Shown here one piece after another: positions 46,539-64,000 of a stretch of 64,000 nucleotides of DNA (positions are counted from its first letter, which is position 1; each line of letters begins with the position of its first letter). This stretch comes from Flavobacteriaceae bacterium 3519-10. GTDB taxonomy: Bacteria; Bacteroidota; Bacteroidia; Flavobacteriales; Weeksellaceae. The notes under the pieces are model-generated. The model was not told the origin of the DNA and made no database searches. It was given only the letters and a program-made list of their open reading frames with translations. The DNA lies in NCBI GenBank assembly GCA_000023725.1, contig CP001673.1:2056342-2120341 (forward strand). Reading direction: 5' to 3'. Made by a program: the position numbers and the translations under genes.

Positions 46539-46813
46539 TTATTTCATAGCCTTCAGGGTTATCATCTCACCGCCCAGATTTTATTTTGATGATATAAACC
46601 CCAACGGAAAGGCTGATAAATCGCTAAGCGCTTCAACTGCTTTCGGCTCTACATGTAAACCAGTCTGCCGCTGCTGTCGAAGAGTTCAAGACTTGTGAAC
46701 TTCTTTGAAGAAGACTTTATGGTAGAAAGGTCGCGGTCCCGGTACACCATGAGCGGCCCTGTGACAGCCGACTCTGTTCCGAATACACCTCCGGGTTTAT
46801 AACTTTGCGCCAT
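46539..46813 (-). pseudogene. Fossil T9SS type A sorting domain
   Basis: Read on the minus strand from 46813, the frame gives YKPGGVFGTESAV, PLMVYRDRD and KFTSLELFDSSGRLVYM, then a TAG stop. In shifted frames the rest of a sorting domain can be followed: GVYIIKIKSG and then EMITLKAMK before a TAA at 46539. This matches, in order, the C-terminal ~90 residues of the neighbouring cargo proteins (YKPEAVLATDSAV ... VYRDG ... YDLSGRLLQKL ... GVYVLKI ... VKKVIK). At least one stop and one or two frameshifts are needed. The upstream body of the gene is gone. It sits just beyond the terminator of the next cargo gene. Confidence 0.8.
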
Positions 46814-46894: not shown

Positions 46895-49800
46895 CTACTT
46901 AATGACCTTTTTAACGGTGATCTTGTCATTATGATTAATTTTCAGCACATACACACCATTCACCATAAGACCGGAATCTATCACCGCTGTGGTGCTTTTC
47001 GGCTTTAGCTTTTGTAAAAGCCTGCCGCTTAGATCATATACTTCTACATCGTCAATATTAGTACGTTGCGCTTTCACCACAAAGTTGGTCCCGTCCCGGT
47101 ACACCTGAAGCTCTTCCTTCACAGCACTGTCGGTTGCCAATACGGCTTCGGGTTTGTAAATAATTTCAAACCGTCCTGTACTTTCACCCGCGTTTGCTGC
47201 GAAGGTGTAATCGCCCTCGCTGAGGTTCGTTACTATTCCTGTTTGCTTGTCTTTAAGATAGATATTTTGTCCGTTGGCGAAGATGCCCTCGGTGGTGTCG
47301 ATTTTTATCCGGTAGTTCCCGCTTACAAAATGCGACGAGCCTAATGGGATTTTATCAGTATCCCCGAAGGAAGTACGTCCGTTTATCGCAGATTTCTCTG
47401 TGCCTACCATACTGAAGAGCGCATCGGATCCACCCATCGTGCGCGAGTCTTCGGCACCAAAAGCATCGTTACCCCCCCCATAATGCACGATGGCTATTGT
47501 TGAAGTAATACCTGAAGGGGCTGTCATCTGTAGCCAGTAACGGTCTGTAGGAATTGACGTTGCAGTTTTGCCGAGAAAATCTACTGCTGAACCTTCCGCA
47601 GTTCTTATACTGTTATCAAATTTGAAGTTGTAAGCAGTTTGCAACGACCGTGTCATAAAACCCTGTCCAACCTTTACTATTTTGGTCGGTCTTTTAGCTC
47701 CAACCACTGTTCCATTGTTGAGCGAACCTGCGGCCGTTCCGGTTCCCTCCGGACCCGTAAGTACATTGAAAATCGCGTAGGATTGTCCGCCATAACTGCT
47801 GCCCTGCTGCTGGAAGATTGTATTTTTATTGTTATCCCAGAAATAGAATGTCGGACTGATGTTAGGTGACTCAACCTGCACGCCGTCGGTCTTTCCACCG
47901 TTAATGTCATATAACTTCCGCAGATCAATATTAGACGCATACGGATTTCCCATCAGATTATAACCAAAAGTCGTCACGTCAATATTTTTATTCGCCACTG
48001 CCAATGTGATCTCACCGTTTTGCGGGGTCCCTTTAAACTGTGCTGTCGTTTTTCCGTCGGTTAAAACAGTTGTTACGGGGGGCTCTTTCACCGCAGAACC
48101 TCGACCCGGAACATTAGCACCCGACGAGGTGGAAAACGTATTCGTCGTTTGGTTGTGATACAGTACCGTCCCGTTTGTGGTTCCCGGAAAGACCGTTTTA
48201 AAGGACTGACCGCTTTCAAACGCTACGGGAGTACCGAGGTAATTGTACTGCACCCGATCTGCACCAATTTTAAACTCGCGTTCCGAAATAATATTTCCAG
48301 AATTGGCAGGTGACGGCGTGTTATTAATCTGTACAAGATTTCCTTCCGACTGAACTAAAACACTTCCATTATTTGTAAAGTTATTCACTACAGTTAGTGA
48401 GGTATTGGGAGCAATAGTGAGTTTTTTCGATGCACTTACAGTACAGTCGCACGCGTAAACCGAACCTGCGGAGGTATTGTAATCACTGTAGAATCTGACA
48501 CTCAGACCGTTATTTTGAGGAATCCCCTCACTACTCCATCCGCTTGCACTATAAACTGAAGTTAATCCCACTTTAATAACTCCTGTCGCCTTTTTATCCC
48601 CACATCCTCCTGATAGGGGAATACTGTAATTAAAAGTTCCAGTTACGGTTGGGGTTCCGCTGATGGTAATCTTATTATTATTCCACAGCGCGGTTACTCC
48701 CGCTGGTAAACCGTTCACTCCGGTTGAAACACCATTGTTTGCAATGCCGTTTGCACCCGTCGTTTCGTAGGTTATCGGAGAAATTGCTGTAGCAGCACAA
48801 ATCTGCTGATTATCGGTATTTGGTAATGAACTTAAAGTAACAGTGTTGGCTGGGTTGACAACCATGGTAATTGCATTGGAAGTCACGGGTGAACCCGTCA
48901 AACATGGTGTCGCATTTGAAGTCAGTGTTACCGTTACTTCATCACCATTAACTAATGTAGATGATGCAAAAGTAGCACTGTTCGCTCCAACAGGATTTCC
49001 GTTGACTTTCCATTGATAAGATGGAGCTAAACCACCGTTTGTAGGAGTCACTGTGAAAGTCACATTCGCACCTGAACAAATCGTTGTTGCTGTCGCTCCA
49101 ATACGTACACTTGCAGGCAAGTTTGGATTAACAACCATGGTAATTGCATTGGAGATAGTGGGTGAACCGGCTAAACAGGACGTCGCATTGGATGTCATTA
49201 CTACTGTAATAGCATCATTATTGGCTAACGAGGTAGTTGTATAGGTTGCATTGATAGCACCTGTAATGTTTGTGCCTCCTTTTCTCCATTGGTAAGTTGG
49301 TGAGGTACCGCCATTCGTTGGTGTTGCCGTAAAAGTAACCGTACTTCCTGCACAAATATTGTTAGCACTAGCTGCAATACTTACACTGGCGGTCAGCCTC
49401 GGATTAACGCTCATGACCAGCTCATTGGAAGTGGCGGGTGAACCGGTTGCACACGGGCCAGCATTTGAAGTAAGTACTGCCGTTACTTTATCACCACTTG
49501 CTAAAGCCGTGGTAGTAAAAGTCGCACTGTTGGAACCAACGTTGCTGCCGTTCACTTTCCATTGGAAGCTCGGTGCTGTTCCGCCATTAATTGGAGTTGC
49601 CGTAAAAGTCACCTGACTTCCAGCACAGATTGTGGTTCCCGAGTTGGCGGAAATACTGACACTTGCAGGTAAATTAGGAGTTACTGTAACCCATTTATAA
49701 GGACCGTATCCTGTACTGCAGCTGTTGGTTGCATTTACAGATACGTTCGCACTGCTGGTTCCAATCTTCACCGTGATAGAATTGGTTCCCTGTCCACTCA

Positions 49801-53851: not shown

Positions 53852-56800
53852 TTACCTGACGATTTTCTTCGCCGTAATCAGTCCGCTTTGGTCGATCCGG
53901 GTGATGTACATGCCATTTCGCAGATCTTCAGCACTGATGAAGGCTTCCAATGCATTCGGCTGTGCCCTGTAGATTAAGCGTCCGGCCGTATCAAACAGTT
54001 CGAGCTGGGTTATCTTTTTCGACTGTGCCTTCACCACAAACCGGTTTCCATCACGGTACACGGTGAGTTCATCTTTGGTATCGAAATCCACTGCCAGGAT
54101 AGTCGTCGGTTTATAGATGATTTCAAACCGGCCCGTGGATTCGCCTGCGTCAGCGCTGAAGGTGTAGTTGCCTTCATTCAGGTTGGTAATTATTCCGGTG
54201 TGTTTGTCTTTGAGGTAAACGGCCTGACCATTGGCAAAAACACCTGTCTTCATGTTTAACGAGAAAGTATAGCTACCGGCTGAAAAGTGCCTGGTTTCGA
54301 CCGTGACTGCATCGGTGTCGACAAATGCACTGCGTCCGTCAATCGAGAGTTTTTCGTTTTCTACGATACTGAACACATCATCAGACCCGCCGAATGCTTC
54401 TGAATCATCCACAGCAAACAGGTTGTTTCCGCCGCTGAAATAAACCAAAGCCATATTGGACGTTATGCCTGAGGGCGCGGCCATGCTAAGCCAAAAGCGG
54501 TCGTCTGTGTTCTGTTTACCATAAAATACAGATCCTGCATTATCAGCCAATCGTAACGCATTCGCGAACTTAAGGACTTTGCCGGGGCCCAACGACCTCA
54601 CCATAAAACCTTGTCCTGTTTTCACAATATTGTTAGGGACTTTGCTGGCGCCGGGAGCCGTAGCCATTTGTCCGTACCCCGGCGCCGGAAGACCTTCACC
54701 TCCCGTGCCCGTCGCGGCATTGAAGATTGCATACGCACTTCCGTCATACGTACTGCCTTGTTGCTCATAAAAACTGTTGACCGTGTTATCCCAAAATCTG
54801 AATGTGGACTCGATTTCTGTATTATTATCTTCATACAGCATATTCAAATCGATATTCGACGGATAAGGATTTCCTACCAGGTTATACCCGGAAACAGCTC
54901 CCGAATAGGCTAAGGCATACTCAAGTACGCCATTAAACGGCTTTCCTGTAAAAAATGCCGTTGGCAGAGCACCGGAACTTAGCGGCGGCTCCTTAACTGC
55001 GAGTGACCTTCCCTCAATGTATGCACCCGTTGAATTATTGAAGAAACTTGTTGCTTCATTATAATAAAGCGCAAATGGTGCAGCGACCGCAGCCATCGTG
55101 CCAGTTTTGTAGATGTCAGTTTTTAGATTAGCACCTTCAACCGGCGAAATCAGGTAGTTGTATTCTTTCCGGTCATTGTTTCTAAAACTTAAATTCCGCT
55201 TCAGCAAAATATTACCGGTGTTTACCGCCTCGTCTTCGAGCTGAATCAGGCTTCCATCGCTGTTGACTGTGACGGTTCCGTTGTTGATCAGTGCACCCCG
55301 AAGTTGCAAGTGTCTGTCCGCTTCTACAGTAAGAGATTTTCCGGGATTAATTTCGCATTCGCATGCGTCAATGGATGGGCGTACGCCGGTATAATCAGAG
55401 TCAATAAAGACCTTTTCATCTAAAGTTGGGGCTGGTATTACCACACCAGAACTTGAACGCCAATTGGTGTTGCCCGCAACTGTATTCCACACTTTGTAGA
55501 CGGCGTTGCTCGAAAGTATCCTTACATCATCAATCAGCCAAAGTTTGTTGTTGTTTTCGGTTTTACCTTTAATCCGGAATTTAAGATTAGTGACGCCGGC
55601 TGAGGCAGGGATATTCAGCACGACACTGTTATATTTTGTGCTATTTGTATTGCTAATGACTGTTCCAAGCCCCATTGTAGCTACAGCCTGATTGCCTGAT
55701 AAAAAATGGTTTCTAAAATATAAACCACTGCTTTCCGATCCTCTCAACACAATCTCATCAGACCACGTATTATCTGGCTTTAAAACAGAAACTTTTATCG
55801 TTGAATTTATATTCAATCCATTCTCCGTATCATCATTTACAGTGGGATTGTTCCACCAATGCTGAGGCTTATCGGTTGTTGTGAACGCGGCCACATTAAA
55901 TGCAATTGCGACATCTTTCTTCTGTGCTACATTTACGCCGTTTAAGCCGCAAAACTCGATGGTCTTTTCTGTATTACCGCGGAACATCAGGGAACTTGTA
56001 GCGGAACTATACAGATTTTGGGCGCCAGGATAGAGTTGCGTAGTTAGCGAATTGGAACCGGAAGGACTTGAACTACCGGCCACTAAATCAGCGGCTGAAC
56101 AGCTGGACTCGAGCGTTTGGTCTGTCAGCGCAAAATTGTTTGTTACATATGCAGTACTCTCCAGACTGCAACTCGCGCCAACGCCCATCACTGTAAATTT
56201 GTACGGACTTGGTGCTGCGTTAGAGTACAAATTTATTTCTGCGGTTCTAATTCCATCTGCTAAGGGTTTAAATGATATATAAAAGAGAACGAATGTACCG
56301 CTTGGGGTGGTTGCAACTCCGACTGGCGACAGAGAACTGGGACTAACGGTAAAATCTCCGGGATTCGCTCCCGAAACCGTAATACTGTTAACCGTCAGCT
56401 GAGATCCAGAAGTTCCCTGCAAATTTCTTACCCGGTAGCCTTTGGTTTGTGGCCCAAGGCTGGTCTGTCTCGTTCCAAAGTCAGTCGTCAAGGCTGCTGA
56501 AGCTGGTGATAAGTGCGGTATATGCGTATTGGCTGGGGGTGTAGCCGAATATACCTGGATCTTTGGTGTACCGGTACTTAATTTAAGATTATCTATCCTT
56601 AGATTATCACCCAAATCCAATCCGAGATAGACTTCAATGCGTATCTTTAAACCGGTTTTATTATTTGCCCCTGCGGGTAAAGCAACCGAAAAAGAATCCG
56701 TAGCAGTGCTGCCAAATAGGGATAACAGCTGGAGATCACCCAAATTCTGGAAAGAATTGCCCGCTCCCGTATTTGCATATACCGTCCAACTCCCTGTACC

Positions 56801-57139
56801 GAAAAAAGCACTGAATCTGCCATCGAATGATACTACCATATTTTGATACGCACTGGCATCAATTGATAATTCCAGATAATCACCCCCGCCTACCGCACGC
56901 AACCAGCTGTTATCGTAGCCGGGTGTGCGCGGGTTGCCGTTCGCATAATTATAAGTGAGAGATGTATTTAGAGGAGGAACCGGGGTTGTGTCAGAGTTCA
57001 GATTATTATTAAACTGGTATGATACGATGGTGGTCTGACCGTTATACATTACATACGACAGAATAAAACCTAACAAAAGCAATTTTACCGGCGAATTTCT
57101 GTAAGAGTTTATTAAGCAGAGTAGATTTGTTTTCATCAT
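53852..57139 (-). CDS. T9SS type A cargo protein with choice-of-anchor domains, 1095 residues
   Basis: The protein has a signal peptide (VKLLLLGFILSYVMYNG). A beta-sandwich follows, starting TTIVSYQFNNNLNSDTTPVP (about 35-190). Next are a choice-of-anchor D-like domain (YRVRNLQGTSGSQLTVNSIT; YISFKPLADGIRTAEINLYS), another sandwich (about 330-560) and the shared C-terminal module from about residue 600 (LVGNPYPSNIDLNMLY; LKDKHTGIITNLNEGNYTF; FEIIYKPTTILAV; LFDTAGRLIYRAQP; TAKKIVR). Two ATGs begin the frame. Its residues from about 35 to 175 are duplicated almost unchanged in a broken copy at 61039-61528. It is probably exported and surface-bound; ligand unknown. Confidence 0.9.
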   Translation of the reverse strand: MMKTNLLCLINSYRNSPVKLLLLGFILSYVMYNGQTTIVSYQFNNNLNSDTTPVPPLNTSLTYNYANGNPRTPGYDNSWLRAVGGGDYLELSIDASAYQNMVVSFDGRFSAFFGTGSWTVYANTGAGNSFQNLGDLQLLSLFGSTATDSFSVALPAGANNKTGLKIRIEVYLGLDLGDNLRIDNLKLSTGTPKIQVYSATPPANTHIPHLSPASAALTTDFGTRQTSLGPQTKGYRVRNLQGTSGSQLTVNSITVSGANPGDFTVSPSSLSPVGVATTPSGTFVLFYISFKPLADGIRTAEINLYSNAAPSPYKFTVMGVGASCSLESTAYVTNNFALTDQTLESSCSAADLVAGSSSPSGSNSLTTQLYPGAQNLYSSATSSLMFRGNTEKTIEFCGLNGVNVAQKKDVAIAFNVAAFTTTDKPQHWWNNPTVNDDTENGLNINSTIKVSVLKPDNTWSDEIVLRGSESSGLYFRNHFLSGNQAVATMGLGTVISNTNSTKYNSVVLNIPASAGVTNLKFRIKGKTENNNKLWLIDDVRILSSNAVYKVWNTVAGNTNWRSSSGVVIPAPTLDEKVFIDSDYTGVRPSIDACECEINPGKSLTVEADRHLQLRGALINNGTVTVNSDGSLIQLEDEAVNTGNILLKRNLSFRNNDRKEYNYLISPVEGANLKTDIYKTGTMAAVAAPFALYYNEATSFFNNSTGAYIEGRSLAVKEPPLSSGALPTAFFTGKPFNGVLEYALAYSGAVSGYNLVGNPYPSNIDLNMLYEDNNTEIESTFRFWDNTVNSFYEQQGSTYDGSAYAIFNAATGTGGEGLPAPGYGQMATAPGASKVPNNIVKTGQGFMVRSLGPGKVLKFANALRLADNAGSVFYGKQNTDDRFWLSMAAPSGITSNMALVYFSGGNNLFAVDDSEAFGGSDDVFSIVENEKLSIDGRSAFVDTDAVTVETRHFSAGSYTFSLNMKTGVFANGQAVYLKDKHTGIITNLNEGNYTFSADAGESTGRFEIIYKPTTILAVDFDTKDELTVYRDGNRFVVKAQSKKITQLELFDTAGRLIYRAQPNALEAFISAEDLRNGMYITRIDQSGLITAKKIVR
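56620..57043 (-). repeat. Duplicated N-terminal module, intact copy
   Basis: This ~425-bp segment, encoding the first beta-sandwich of the 1095-residue cargo protein, is nearly identical to 61046-61478. Both copies are in the same orientation, about 4.4 kb apart, with one complete cargo gene between them. The intact copy has a run of five C where the other has six. Borders are estimated by eye. Confidence 0.8.
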
Positions 57140-57477: not shown

Positions 57478-60400
57478 CTAGTTGATGATTTTCTTCACCG
57501 TAACCTGGTCCGCGTGCATGATCCTCAGTATATAGACCCCTGCTGCAAGGCTTTCCTTAGAGATCTCTGCGGTTCCTGCATTCGGTTTTGCCGTGTACAC
57601 CAAACGTCCGACAGCATCATAGAGCTGAAGCGAAGAGATGCGGTCATGTTTTGATCTTACTACAAAATTATTCCCGTCTTTATACACAGCTACCTCCTGT
57701 TTTACGGCGTTGTCGGTCGCAAGTACAACTTCGGGTTTATAGATGATTTCGAACCTTCCCGTGCTGTCGCCGGCGTTTGCTGCAAAGCTGTAGCTATTTT
57801 GGCTCAGATTGGTGATCGCTCCTGTTTGTCTGTCTTTCAGATATATATGCTGGCCATTTGCAAAAACACCTTCTGATTTCAAAATCGAAATGGTATGAAC
57901 ACCTGCCGAATAATGCCGGGTTCCCAGTTCCACAGCGTCGGTATTGCTGAAAGAGCCTTTTCCGTTGATGCTCACATTTTTGCCGTTTACGATACTGAAT
58001 AATTCGTCATCGCTGCCGCCGGATTCAGAATCTTCGGCACCCAATGCTGCATTACCTTCTTCAAAATATACCACGGCGAGTGAAGTGGCCATATCGGTAG
58101 GTGTTGTCAGGGTAAGCCAGTACCGGTCGTCCTCAGTTTGAGATGCTGTTTTACCCAGAAATTCAATAGGGCAAGATTCAGCAGTACGCACCGAGTTATT
58201 AAACACAAACGTTGAATTTTTAAGCAGGGCTTTTACCATGAAGCCCTGCCCCACTTTCATCACATTTGAAGGGATTTTTGAACTTTGCGGCTTTGATCCG
58301 CTGCCGGCGGCGGGCGTCCCCGTCCCGTTTGTGCCGGCTAACGCATTATATACTGCGTACGCCTGCCCTTTGTAGGATGATCCCTGCTGAACGTATATCG
58401 TATTAACCGTATTATCCCATAAATAAAAGCTTGAACTGAAAGGCACCGGCGCATCTTGTGCCACTTTGTCTTTGTTAAGTTTATAGAGGGCTTTGAGATC
58501 CAAATTGGAAGCATATGGATTACCCAATAAATTAAATCCTAAATGCGTACTGGTAGACGTATTGCTGTTGGCCAGCGCGTAATTGATTACACCGTTCTGC
58601 GGTACACCAACATAGGTAGCCGTCACTGTAGTTGCGGTTGCCGGAATGGCAGCTACAGTAGGTTCTTTCACAGCCAGGCCGCGTCCCGGAATGTTAGCAC
58701 CTGACGAGCTGTAGAACAGGTTATTGGCCTCATTGTGATAGGTCACAAAAGAGATACCCGGATAAATCGTTTTTAAGCTGTGTCCCGGTGCAAATGTAAC
58801 CGGTGAACCCAGGTAATTATATTGCGCACGGCCTTCGGAAATTTTAATATTGGTCAGCACCTTAATGTTCCCGCTGTTTGGGGCCGCCGAATCATTGACC
58901 TGGATAAGGTTGGCACCGTTCGCTACCACTACCGATCCGGAAGGCCGTACGTCAAGTTGGTTAGTCAGTTTCACCGCAGTGCCTTCGGAAATGGTGAGCA
59001 GACCGTTCGTTACCTCCAGAGAGCAGGCTTCAAAACCTCCGTGAACTGCCGAATTATAGTCGGCATCGATACGGGCTTTTTTTCTGATGGAAGGTGTTTC
59101 GCTCCAGGAGGATCCGCCCCATACAGCAGTGCTTGTACAGGATCCCGCATAGATTTCAGACTTAATGCCCGTGAGCGTTGGGCCTGCCAGTACGTTGGGT
59201 GTATCAGGGTAGCCATAGTTAATATAGAATTTGGCAGAGGAATACCCGGTATTATAAAAGTAAATCCTTACATAAAGAGTTTCGGCCGGATACAGAAATG
59301 CATCTTCAGTGAACTCGGCATTTAAGTCGGACCAGCCATTATCCTGATGACTGTAACGATAGTGATCAACGAGCGTCTTTACACCGCTGGAGAAATCAGC
59401 ATTTTTAGAATATCTGATAGTAAAGTTGCCTGGACCTTCTGCATTATAGCGCATGTTGAAATGTTTCACCAGTAACAGCTCGTCCTGTAAAGTGGAAGTG
59501 ACCGAAAACTGAATGAATTTAGTGGGTACCAGTGCACCGTTAAGATCAGTTAAAGTTGGCATCTGTTCTATTCTGAAAGCCTGATGCTTTTTATTGTTAA
59601 CCCAATAGGAATCAAAATTACTTATGGTAACGCCGCCATGGGGCTGCAATGCAGAGCCTGTAATTCCTGAGATATAGTTAACAGGCATAAAATCAGATCG
59701 GTTCCACCGCTCAGTTACGGTTGCGCTGCCATCAATTACCTGCAGCTCCACCTTGGCGGTATTGGAAACCCCCGCAGAATTGGTGATGGTGTAATAAAAC
59801 AGATCATAACCCGTAAAACCCATCGCGGGTGTATATACTATTTTTTTGTCACTATTCACGACCGCAACACCGTTTTGCGGTGCTGCAACAAAACTTACCG
59901 CGGTGACAGGATGCCCGATGCTGTACACATCATTTGCAAGTACATCAATGGTCACCTCCTTATTCTTGGTCGTGCCACTACGGTCATCTACAGCTAAAGG
60001 GACAGTAGCAATATCTGCTGTTACATTTCCTGAAAGGGCCGGCCCAAGGTTCCCTGCTTCGTTGTGCAGCAGGTGAAAGTTATTATAGGTGTTATATACA
60101 AATATCCTCACATACATTGTTTCTCCCGATCCTACTACCGTATTGGCTGGAAAATTGGGACTGAAAGCCTGGTAGGCAAGATTACTGACTGTTTCCGCCA
60201 GCAGGGTTTGCGCATCCGAAAAATCTGCTTTTCTGGAATATTTCACCGTAAATTTCTGCACATCATCACCCCCGTGTTTTCGTGCCGAAAAAGAAAAATT
60301 AGTAAGATTAATTTTATAACCCGCTGATGCCGTTACCGTAAACTGAATAAATTTCAGTGGGTCGGGAGCAGCTGAACTGCTGATTGTATTATGGGTAATA

Positions 60401-60612
60401 TAGAATGCTTCCTGACTCCAGTATTCCTGATGAACGACGCCTGAGACGGGCTGTGCGGTGATAGAGTTCTGCATGACCGTAGGCTGTAAGTTCGAATTGA
60501 ACCACCTTACCAGGGTGCTTTGCGACATCATCAATGCCGGTAAGAACAGTAACAGAAAGATCGCTTTCTGAAAAGTTGCCCTCTGAATTGAGTAAATAGA
60601 TTTTTTTTTCAT
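57478..60612 (-). CDS. T9SS type A cargo protein with cadherin-like Ig domain, 1044 residues
   Basis: The protein has a signal peptide (AIFLLLFLPALMMS). Two related beta-sandwich domains follow (QFTVTASAGYKINLTNFSF, about 30-200; QFSVTSTLQDELLLVKHFNM, about 300-470). They flank a cadherin/Big-9-like domain (PLAVDDRSGTTKNKEVTIDV … YTPAMGFTGYDLFYYTITN). The shared C-terminal module begins near 530 (LLGNPYASNLDLKALY; LKDRQTGAITNLSQNSYSF; LQLYDAVGRLVYTAKP; TVKKIIN). The gene is preceded by a well-formed promoter and a short leader ORF. It lies between the two copies of the duplicated N-terminal module. Confidence 0.9.
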   Translation of the reverse strand: MKKKSIYSIQRATFQKAIFLLLFLPALMMSQSTLVRWFNSNLQPTVMQNSITAQPVSGVVHQEYWSQEAFYITHNTISSSAAPDPLKFIQFTVTASAGYKINLTNFSFSARKHGGDDVQKFTVKYSRKADFSDAQTLLAETVSNLAYQAFSPNFPANTVVGSGETMYVRIFVYNTYNNFHLLHNEAGNLGPALSGNVTADIATVPLAVDDRSGTTKNKEVTIDVLANDVYSIGHPVTAVSFVAAPQNGVAVVNSDKKIVYTPAMGFTGYDLFYYTITNSAGVSNTAKVELQVIDGSATVTERWNRSDFMPVNYISGITGSALQPHGGVTISNFDSYWVNNKKHQAFRIEQMPTLTDLNGALVPTKFIQFSVTSTLQDELLLVKHFNMRYNAEGPGNFTIRYSKNADFSSGVKTLVDHYRYSHQDNGWSDLNAEFTEDAFLYPAETLYVRIYFYNTGYSSAKFYINYGYPDTPNVLAGPTLTGIKSEIYAGSCTSTAVWGGSSWSETPSIRKKARIDADYNSAVHGGFEACSLEVTNGLLTISEGTAVKLTNQLDVRPSGSVVVANGANLIQVNDSAAPNSGNIKVLTNIKISEGRAQYNYLGSPVTFAPGHSLKTIYPGISFVTYHNEANNLFYSSSGANIPGRGLAVKEPTVAAIPATATTVTATYVGVPQNGVINYALANSNTSTSTHLGFNLLGNPYASNLDLKALYKLNKDKVAQDAPVPFSSSFYLWDNTVNTIYVQQGSSYKGQAYAVYNALAGTNGTGTPAAGSGSKPQSSKIPSNVMKVGQGFMVKALLKNSTFVFNNSVRTAESCPIEFLGKTASQTEDDRYWLTLTTPTDMATSLAVVYFEEGNAALGAEDSESGGSDDELFSIVNGKNVSINGKGSFSNTDAVELGTRHYSAGVHTISILKSEGVFANGQHIYLKDRQTGAITNLSQNSYSFAANAGDSTGRFEIIYKPEVVLATDNAVKQEVAVYKDGNNFVVRSKHDRISSLQLYDAVGRLVYTAKPNAGTAEISKESLAAGVYILRIMHADQVTVKKIIN

Positions 60613-60723
60613 TATGTATTGGTTGTTTGTTGCTTAAACAGCACACCGGAAAAAACCCAGTACCTGGAAGGTTCTGAAAAATGGGAATGCCCCGGAAAAT
60701 TTGTGTTGGTAAAAATTACGCTC

Positions 60724-60819
60724 TTACAGGGCCGTTAGGAAACGCCGGGCAGAAGAAGTCGGGAGACAGAGCAATTTCTGAGTATTGCACCTAAATAGTG
60801 ATTTTTTTAAAGCTTTCAT
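60724..60819 (-). CDS. Possible 31-residue leader peptide
   Basis: An ATG at 60819 lies 29 bases downstream of a consensus promoter -7 box and opens a short frame MKALKKSLFRCNTQK… ending LCLPTSSARRFLTAL before a TAA, 112 bases before the cargo start. It would be the first ORF of the cargo mRNA. It is basic and rich in Leu, Arg and Ser. Known attenuator or sensing peptides often look like this, but no family was recognised. Confidence 0.45.
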   Translation of the reverse strand: MKALKKSLFRCNTQKLLCLPTSSARRFLTAL

Positions 60820-60847
60820 TTGTGTAGTATTGTTTTCAATAGGACTG

Positions 60848-60878
60848 CAAAGATAGGATTTTTTACTCCGCAGCCAAA
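60848..60878 (-). promoter_or_regulatory. Promoter of the 1044-residue cargo gene
   Basis: On the minus strand TTTG (60875-60878) is followed after 19 bases by TATCTTTG (60848-60855), a full match to the Bacteroidota promoter consensus. The predicted transcript carries a ~230-base leader with the 31-residue ORF. Confidence 0.75.
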
Positions 60879-61038: not shown

Positions 61039-61528
61039 TTACAAAAAATCTAATCCGAGATAGACTTCAATGCGTATCTTTAAATCGGTTTTATTATTTG
61101 CCCCTGTGGGTAAAGCAACGGCAAAAGAATCCGTAGCAGTGCTGCCAAAAAGGGATAACAGCTGAAGATCACCCAAATTCTGGAAAGAATTGCCCGCTCC
61201 CGTATTTGCATATACCGTCCAACTCCCTGTACCGAAAAAAGCACTGAATTTGCCGTCGAATGACACTACCATATTTTGATACGGACTGACATCAATTGAT
61301 AATTCCAGATAATCACCCCCCGCCTACCGCACGCAACCAGTTATTGTCATAGACCCGTGTACGCGGGTTGCCGTTCGCATAATTATAAGTAAGTGTTGTA
61401 TTTAAAGGAGGAACCAGGGTTGTGTCATGGTTCAGATTATTATTAAACTGGTACGATACAATGGTTGCTTGTCCTGAAATCATATGTGTCAGCAGGACCA
61501 GCATTAAAAAAAATAATTTTACTTTCAT
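61039..61528 (-). pseudogene. Truncated, frameshifted copy of a cargo gene N-terminus
   Basis: An ATG at 61528 gives a fresh signal peptide (KLFFLMLVLLTHMISG), then ATIVSYQFNNNLNHDTTLVP and on to WLRAVGGG. A one-base insertion in a C-run at about 61316 (six C against five in the intact gene) then breaks the frame. The continuation (MVVSFDGKFSAFFGTGSWTV … LKIRIEVYLGLDFL) lies in the second frame and stops at 61039. The mature part is nearly identical to the start of the 1095-residue cargo protein (53852-57139), but no downstream domains and no sorting domain follow. The signal peptide region differs. A TAAATTTG box at 61583-61590 may be its promoter. 60879-61038 shows nothing. Confidence 0.88.
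61046..61478 (-). repeat. Duplicated N-terminal module, broken copy
   Basis: This is the second copy of the segment at 56620-57043, same orientation. Similarity begins at the GQ(A/T)TIVSYQF codons and ends abruptly at LGLD, after which the sequences differ completely. Differences are few and scattered, which indicates a recent duplication. Borders are estimated by eye. Confidence 0.8.
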
Positions 61529-61703
61529 AATGTAAGTGTTAATTAGTCGGACATCAGCAGTTTAAAGAACCAATACACCAATCAAATTTATCAATCCCTA
61601 CTGTGATCCCTACAGCGGCAAAACCCCTTTACTATTACACCGTACTTACTATTCACTACCGGTGAAAGCACCACTTTCCGATCATACGTCCGTGAAATTT
61701 ATT

Positions 61704-64000
61704 TTATTTAATTAGGCGCTTACTCGTTAGCACCCCATCTTGATTAATCCGTAAAACGTAAAGCCCCTGACTGAAGTTCATCGTATCGATAGATGCTTCA
61801 GTATCGTTTGGGTGTGATGTATGAACCAGTCGACCGGCCGCATCGTATAATTCCAGCGTGGTAATCTTTGTAAACTGTGCTTTTACAATGAAATCGTGCC
61901 CGCTTTTATAGACACTTATGTTGTCTTTGGGATTGTTTTCGCTCGCCAATACCGTTCCCAGTTTATAAATAATTTCGAATCTACTCATCGTCTCACCGCC
62001 AGCCGCCGAAAAAGCATAAGACCCTTCGGAAAGATTGGAAATGATACCGTTGAGTTTGTCCTTAAGATATATCTGTTGCCCTTTTGCGAAAACACCTTCA
62101 GCCCGGTCTAGAGAAATTGAGTAAGTACCGGACGTGAAATGTGTGGTGCCGAGCGCCACTACATCATCCGTTGTAAAATCACTTTTACCGTTGATGCTCA
62201 CTTTTTCACCATCAACGAGCGAGTAGATCACGTCTGAACCACCCATCGACTGCGAATCGTGCATCGTGTAAGCATTATTTCCTCCGGCAAAGTAAACGAC
62301 AGCGATGTTGCTGGCGATATTGGAGGAATTTGCCATGTTCAGCCAAAAGCGGTCGGGTTGATCTGCAGCTTCTTTCCCAAAGAAACCTTCTGCACTTTCA
62401 GCACTTCTGATATTGTTGTTAAATTTGAGGTCCATCTGGCTTGCACCAATGAGCTTTGCCATAAAACCCTGAGCCACTTTCACATACCTGGTCGGAACTT
62501 TCAGCGTCGCAGTTCCCGGATCTCCCGTTGCCTCAAGAGGTGTACCCTCTCCAGGTGGCGTTGCCGCATTGAAAGTTGCGTAGGCTTGCCCCTCATACTG
62601 ATCACCCATCTGCTTAATTTGGGTATTCGCGGTATTATCCCAAAAATAAAAAGTTGGACTTAACGTATTTGATTCCGTGTTATTCTGATAGAACTTAATA
62701 AGATCCATATTCGATGGATAAGGATTGCCGATGAGATTAAACCCGCGTTTAGGATTATTAGGATTTGAATTAGACAAAGAATACACGAACGCGCCGTTAG
62801 CCGGTTTTCCCTCGAAGACCGCGTTAATTTCAGAGGCCGGAAAATTCGCTGTAGGCTCCTTAACTGCCAGTGCACGCCCTTTGATAAATGCACCGCTCGA
62901 ATTTGCAAACGTGTTGGTAGCTTCATTATGGTATAAAATAAAAGGCACGTTCACAGGATTTCCGGCGGAATCTTTATAAATATCTTTCATATTCCAATCC
63001 AGTGCAGGGGAGATCAGATAATTATACTGCTGTCTGTTGGCAGAAAGATTAATTTTCCTATTTACTCTAAATGATCCGGTTCCTGAATTTGAATCGCTTT
63101 CGTTTACCTGCACTAAATTTGCATCTGACTCCACAATTACATTCCCATTATTTACGAGAACATCTGAAGCTTTAACAGCACCAACTCCCGACACGGTTAA
63201 TGTTGCACCACTGCTTACTTCACACTGGCAGGCCGTGAAACCGCCATCAACTGCGGTATTATAATCGCCTGCAAAAATGGCTTTATCTGAAGGCTGCGGC
63301 GCGGAAGGAGACCATGAGCTACCGTTCCATACTTTTGGTACCAGTCCAGTGCTCATAATTCTGATATCATCAATAATCCAGGATTCATTCAGCGCATTGT
63401 TCTGCAATGAAATCCTCACTTTTAAACTGGATACCGATGGGAGATTATTGATGGTAACTGCACTATATCGCGCCATAGAAGTGGATTTGAAATATGTCAG
63501 GTTGTTATCGGCAGAATAGGCACGACTTGCTTGCGCTGTAAAATCGCTGCCGAAACTCCAGGCAAGATTCAATTGGTCGGATACCACTTTAGCCTGCCGG
63601 TACCAGTTTGCTCCGCCATCCGGACTGATTTCTACAAGAACATGATCAATCTTTGTATCGTCCGGAATAAGTTCCGGATCTGAATCGGCATTTTTGCTGT
63701 CCATTCCGTTGCTCGAACTGCCCAGTGAGAAGCCTGCGATTTTAAACGAGAGCGAAAGATTAGTGTAACTGGAAGTATTGACCTCATTAAAAATTAACAT
63801 TAAGCCTGACGCCGTCTCCCCGATCGGGTCTGCACCTTGCACCCGGTAGCCACGGCTGCCTTCCGAATACAGTTTGTTATTTTTAGGCGATGAATTGTTG
63901 CCGCTGTCTCCGATTGTAAATCCCGAGCCCAATCCCGGTGCTAAAGAACCTATATTCGTTCGTGTAAAATTCATTACTGCAGGTGGAGCGGTGGTTTCGA
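61704..64000 (-). CDS. T9SS type A cargo protein, N-terminus beyond the window
   Basis: The frame is open to the right edge: residues ETTAPPAV precede the first internal ATG at 63974, so the true start is outside. The visible ~765 residues have a beta-sandwich (NFTRTNIGSLAPGLGSGFTI … VRISLQNNALNESWIIDDIR), then the shared C-terminal module from about 63240 (CQCEVSSGATLTVSG; LIGNPYPSNMDLIKFY; LKDKLNGIISNLSEGSYAF; FEIIYKLGTVLAS; LELYDAAGRLVHTSHP; TSKRLIK). It is a fifth paralogous cargo protein. No terminator was recognised in 61529-61703. Confidence 0.9.
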   Translation of the reverse strand, partial: ETTAPPAVMNFTRTNIGSLAPGLGSGFTIGDSGNNSSPKNNKLYSEGSRGYRVQGADPIGETASGLMLIFNEVNTSSYTNLSLSFKIAGFSLGSSSNGMDSKNADSDPELIPDDTKIDHVLVEISPDGGANWYRQAKVVSDQLNLAWSFGSDFTAQASRAYSADNNLTYFKSTSMARYSAVTINNLPSVSSLKVRISLQNNALNESWIIDDIRIMSTGLVPKVWNGSSWSPSAPQPSDKAIFAGDYNTAVDGGFTACQCEVSSGATLTVSGVGAVKASDVLVNNGNVIVESDANLVQVNESDSNSGTGSFRVNRKINLSANRQQYNYLISPALDWNMKDIYKDSAGNPVNVPFILYHNEATNTFANSSGAFIKGRALAVKEPTANFPASEINAVFEGKPANGAFVYSLSNSNPNNPKRGFNLIGNPYPSNMDLIKFYQNNTESNTLSPTFYFWDNTANTQIKQMGDQYEGQAYATFNAATPPGEGTPLEATGDPGTATLKVPTRYVKVAQGFMAKLIGASQMDLKFNNNIRSAESAEGFFGKEAADQPDRFWLNMANSSNIASNIAVVYFAGGNNAYTMHDSQSMGGSDVIYSLVDGEKVSINGKSDFTTDDVVALGTTHFTSGTYSISLDRAEGVFAKGQQIYLKDKLNGIISNLSEGSYAFSAAGGETMSRFEIIYKLGTVLASENNPKDNISVYKSGHDFIVKAQFTKITTLELYDAAGRLVHTSHPNDTEASIDTMNFSQGLYVLRINQDGVLTSKRLIK

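Follow-up and report, generated by a model that had tools for sequence, protein, structure and literature searches.

The window, i.e. the whole stretch of 64,000 nucleotides analysed here, holds several genes for T9SS cargo proteins, and between two large surface-protein genes it carries a short sequence, hereafter R, that copies the part of a neighbouring cargo gene where the mature protein begins. The relevant features are:

46573-46801, minus strand: second array fragment, an orphan C-terminal tail, degenerate and interrupted by stops, that lies downstream of a gene for a 2065-aa protein
53852-57139, minus strand: intact T9SS cargo gene (1095 aa) with signal peptide, N-terminal beta domain, choice-of-anchor D-like domain and a shared C-terminal half with sorting domain
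56612-57040, minus strand: block inside the intact cargo gene that matches R
57478-60612, minus strand: complete cargo gene (1044 aa) between the two copies
60848-60878, minus strand: promoter TTTG-N19-TATCTTTG of the 1044-aa gene, read directly from the sequence, 166 bp beyond R's 3' border
61039-61272, minus strand: second piece of the domain of R, in another frame, closed by a stop that lies two codons beyond the 3' border
61045-61474, minus strand: R, 93% identical to 56612-57040
61313-61528, minus strand: ORF of 71 aa that is still readable (MKVKLFF...RAVGGG-stop) and ends at the frameshift
61316-61321, minus strand: C6 tract (G6 on the coding strand) with the extra base; the intact copy has C5 at 56883-56887
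61475-61528, minus strand: coding start of R's own signal peptide, MKVKLFFLMLVLLTHMIS followed by GQ at the border; not part of the duplicated block
61583-61590, minus strand: promoter-like box TAAATTTG of the Bacteroidetes -7 type, upstream of R
61704-63998, minus strand: upstream cargo gene, 1607 aa in all, extending past the window

The intact gene and its neighbours each encode a signal peptide and a type A sorting domain (TIGR04183, PF18962). A structure model of the N-terminal domain predicts a beta domain at moderate confidence (mean pLDDT 66.5), and a fold search returned mostly Ig/MSP-like matches, to the second domain, together with weak CBM4- or MAM-like matches that may belong to the first. 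Since the fold matches of the first domain are weak, we make no claim on its ligand.

R and the block in the intact gene form a direct repeat at an offset of 4433-4434 bp, separated by 34 substitutions in 429 columns and the one extra base in the C tract. The repeat had been placed at 61046-61478 and 56620-57043 in the earlier note; it is real, with the ends shifted by a few bases to those given above. A whole-genome DNA search of the genome, a single contig, recovers the match between the copies at 93% identity over 420 nt (E ~6e-178), and finds the block in two copies only. The copies had also been described as nearly identical and recently duplicated, which overstates the measured identity of 93%, and an overall dS of 0.217 (dN 0.047, dN/dS 0.22, all columns) does not establish a recent duplication. 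On the other hand, the geometry for a deletion of some 4.4 kb was described correctly: recombination between the copies would remove ~4.43 kb including the 1044-aa gene, and no genome showing such a deletion was seen.

The sharp border previously noted is found at both ends of the block. Beyond the 3' border identity drops to 9-15%, and the sequence is there the promoter region of the next gene, of 1044 aa, with TTTG-N19-TATCTTTG, which we take to be a consensus Bacteroidetes-type promoter. The leader of ~235 nt that follows from this promoter to the start of the 1044-aa gene (60613-60848) holds an ORF of 31 codons (MKALKKSLFRCNTQKLLCLPTSSARRFLTAL). The equally sharp 5' border coincides with the start of the mature protein: over the signal-peptide codons identity is ~48%, the signal-peptide DNA of R and of the intact gene aligns no better than shuffled DNA, and the two peptides have VKL..L..GQ in common. 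Because identity drops at both borders, the duplicated block amounts to ~430 bp and excludes the signal peptide. R thus has a signal peptide of its own, as had been stated, predicted to be cleavable as in T9SS type A cargo from the reading of MKVKLFFLMLVLLTHMISGQ, but the peptide lies outside the duplicated block. Analogously, the promoter-like box is present as a -7-type element at 61583-61590, but no -33 partner is found at the usual spacing. In DNA searches neither flank of R has a second copy elsewhere in the one-contig genome, the upstream region being devoid of DNA homology there, and with both flanks unique and the genome in one contig it is very unlikely that R is an assembly duplicate or misjoin. 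A search of the borders for inverted repeats or a mobile element yielded 13-bp A/T-rich arms only.

The shift of frame by a sixth C, where the intact copy has five, is confirmed in the assembly, and results in a TGA stop after 71 codons of R. R furthermore ends at about residue 142, while the structure model of the intact gene's domain has its last predicted beta strand at residues 145-155; truncation before this strand would leave the domain incomplete even with an open frame. R lacks any tail, as had been claimed: DNA and six-frame protein comparisons detected nothing of the lost tail above chance in the 433 bp downstream, and neither piece of R has a family match to the sorting domain (TIGR04183 or PF18962). 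The missing tail is independent of the sixth C, and the C tract itself is absent from five homologues. R combines homology to a functional gene with disabling lesions (the frameshift and the truncation inside the domain), as a pseudogene would. Elsewhere in the window, a C8 tract at 47472-47479 (G8 on the coding strand, TAT GGG GGG GGT AAC) lies in frame within the open cargo gene of 2065 aa, and slippage would be more plausible there than at the C6 of R.

The divergence between the two copies is unevenly distributed. On reading through the tract dS falls about five-fold, from ~0.49 in the first part to ~0.10 in the second, a difference that holds for the counts of synonymous changes (Fisher p=0.0028) as well as for all differences (p=0.0026). 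Congruent with this unevenness, identity between the copies is clustered (p=0.007), and the longest run free of differences extends over 84 bp (p=0.0145). The pattern, as read from the sequence, would fit a mosaic origin, or gene conversion that affected part of the two copies. A comparison with homologues, read by eye, allowed some amino-acid differences to be polarised: ~5 of these arose in R and no more than one in the intact gene, an excess that fits relaxed constraint on R. Had R evolved neutrally throughout, however, more amino-acid changes would be expected than seen (P 0.01-0.15, depending on the transition bias and constraint assumed), and such a model is only weakly disfavoured. With this result and the overall dN/dS of 0.22, R may have had a function for some time, and its decay is perhaps recent.

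Related genomes had been pointed to as a place to look for intact versions. Among 100 genomes (that of R and 99 relatives), the N-terminal domain is present in six of the relatives, always within long open frames of ~1066-1157 codons, and never forms a stand-alone gene. The relatives in the window's own genus, Kaistella, include K. palustris, K. jeonii, K. gelatinilytica and Kaistella sp. SH40-3. Of 36 genomes in the genus, 33 have matches to the full protein (E < 1e-20), which chiefly span the common 540 aa at the C-terminus, and the regions examined hold arrays of mostly two to eight such genes with differing N-termini. Across these arrays, a given N-terminal module is attached to C-terminal tails that are unrelated from one Kaistella species to the next. 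Six genes, counting the intact gene, carry the latter's N-terminal module, and their tails are scattered over a tree of 60 tails, requiring at least five changes, and a constraint that keeps the six together is rejected with p-AU 1.25e-46; the tree comes from a quick search and includes two long-branched rows, the rejection nonetheless being very strong. By a rough measure that relies on best hits only, 78 of the 101 genes with a strong N-terminal partner have a different best partner for the tail. Within the arrays compared (e.g. L046-L085), three genes of genome G005 closely resemble one another in their tails, and the tails of G020 lie near each other in the tree, which suggests homogenisation within genomes. 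A limited search of the literature returned nothing on such arrays in Kaistella, which does not mean that none exists.

R is not the only fragment in these arrays. Besides the degenerate tail at 46573-46801, tblastn matches place tail fragments between array genes in G005, G014, G029, G030 and G034. Further candidates were rejected as orphan fragments: those at 142177-144626 in G014 and near 1605437 in G027 are probably the true start of the next gene (with a late predicted start or an early stop), the one in G011b is a gene that runs off the end of its contig, and the one in G031 represents a frameshift in a long gene. In G031, two array genes appear frameshifted (L066-L067, at 2113500-2114600 and near 2115800), where either decay or sequencing error is possible.

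Taken together, we consider it likely that R is a pseudogene fragment generated by recombination in a Kaistella T9SS array, whose genes share the C-terminal secretion half and swap their N-terminal modules. Recombination in the array would have placed a module segment, the first ~430 bp that code for the mature protein, behind another signal peptide with the frame kept. The segment would end shortly ahead of the final strand of the first domain, with the rest of the gene either lost or never present, and the frameshift may have occurred before or after this truncation. Exchange with the intact gene, at that time or earlier, could have lowered the divergence in the second part of R. A dead remnant was among the possibilities raised in the earlier note, and it is supported by the frameshift, the truncation inside the domain, the missing tail and the excess of amino-acid change on the R branch; presumably, R has no function at present.

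The uneven divergence, with its long identical run and clustered identity, could also be taken as the mark of a silent donor cassette, kept since segments are copied from it into the intact gene (or the reverse), thereby varying the N-terminal module in the manner of antigenic variation, and the movement of N-terminal modules between tails within the genus points in the same direction. Such a role was raised in the earlier note, and some past exchange, in one direction or the other, would fit the data, a current activity being conjectural. Systems of this kind hold several variant donors, whereas this genome has the two copies of the block only; a single donor at 93% identity has little variation on offer, conversion could pass on the frameshift of R, and passive conversion between paralogues gives the same pattern without any function. 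We therefore regard a donor cassette as unlikely. Distinctly unlikely is also the broader proposal of R as an N-terminal cassette kept in store by a T9SS array that is actively shuffling, where it would be joined to other tails and exchange with the intact gene, as part of a modular variation system for the surface proteins of Kaistella.

Alternatively, the sixth C might represent a sequencing or assembly error, leaving R as an ORF for a short secreted protein of ~160 aa. A single error in the tract would however restore neither the tail nor the last strand, the domain is never a stand-alone gene among the genomes searched, and the C8 tract in the nearby 2065-aa gene implies that an even longer tract came through this assembly without loss of frame, making the error improbable. 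The same tract has been proposed as a slip-prone switch, which would turn a short secreted form on and off, hinted at by the six C, R's own signal peptide and the -7-type box. Phase-variable tracts are long and kept across relatives; with a tract that is short, absent from the five homologues and followed by no sorting tail that could be turned on, and with a domain predicted to be one strand short, such a switch is highly improbable. Returning to the pseudogene fragment, R alone is an ordinary broken paralogue, and it matters chiefly as a trace of array change, in which a module was cut loose from its tail. If exchange between R and the intact gene were shown at strain level, the pair would represent a simple system for watching the shuffling of T9SS cargo domains.

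Compared to known systems, the intact parent and its neighbours conform to the Bacteroidetes T9SS type A cargo (TIGR04183, PF18962) with a signal peptide and C-terminal domain, whereas R has a signal peptide without a sorting domain, and is thus a fragment rather than a member of the family. Domain rearrangement and allelic exchange have been reported for T9SS-exported surface proteins and adhesins of Porphyromonas gingivalis, for which the authors propose gene conversion (PMC5266723). Both cases involve surface proteins whose domains recombine and whose secretion tails are shared, although the families are others, and the Kaistella comparison is between species only. Silent donor cassettes are also known from antigenic variation systems, e.g. 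pilS of Neisseria. R resembles these as a truncated copy near a complete gene of the same family, but it would be the sole donor, it has its own start codon and signal peptide, and its exchange with the gene is hypothetical. Finally, tandem surface-protein genes undergo birth-and-death evolution, to which the expanded arrays, the frameshifted and truncated members and the orphan tails observed here correspond, with the difference that R is an N-terminal orphan, while most fragments in the relatives are C-terminal.
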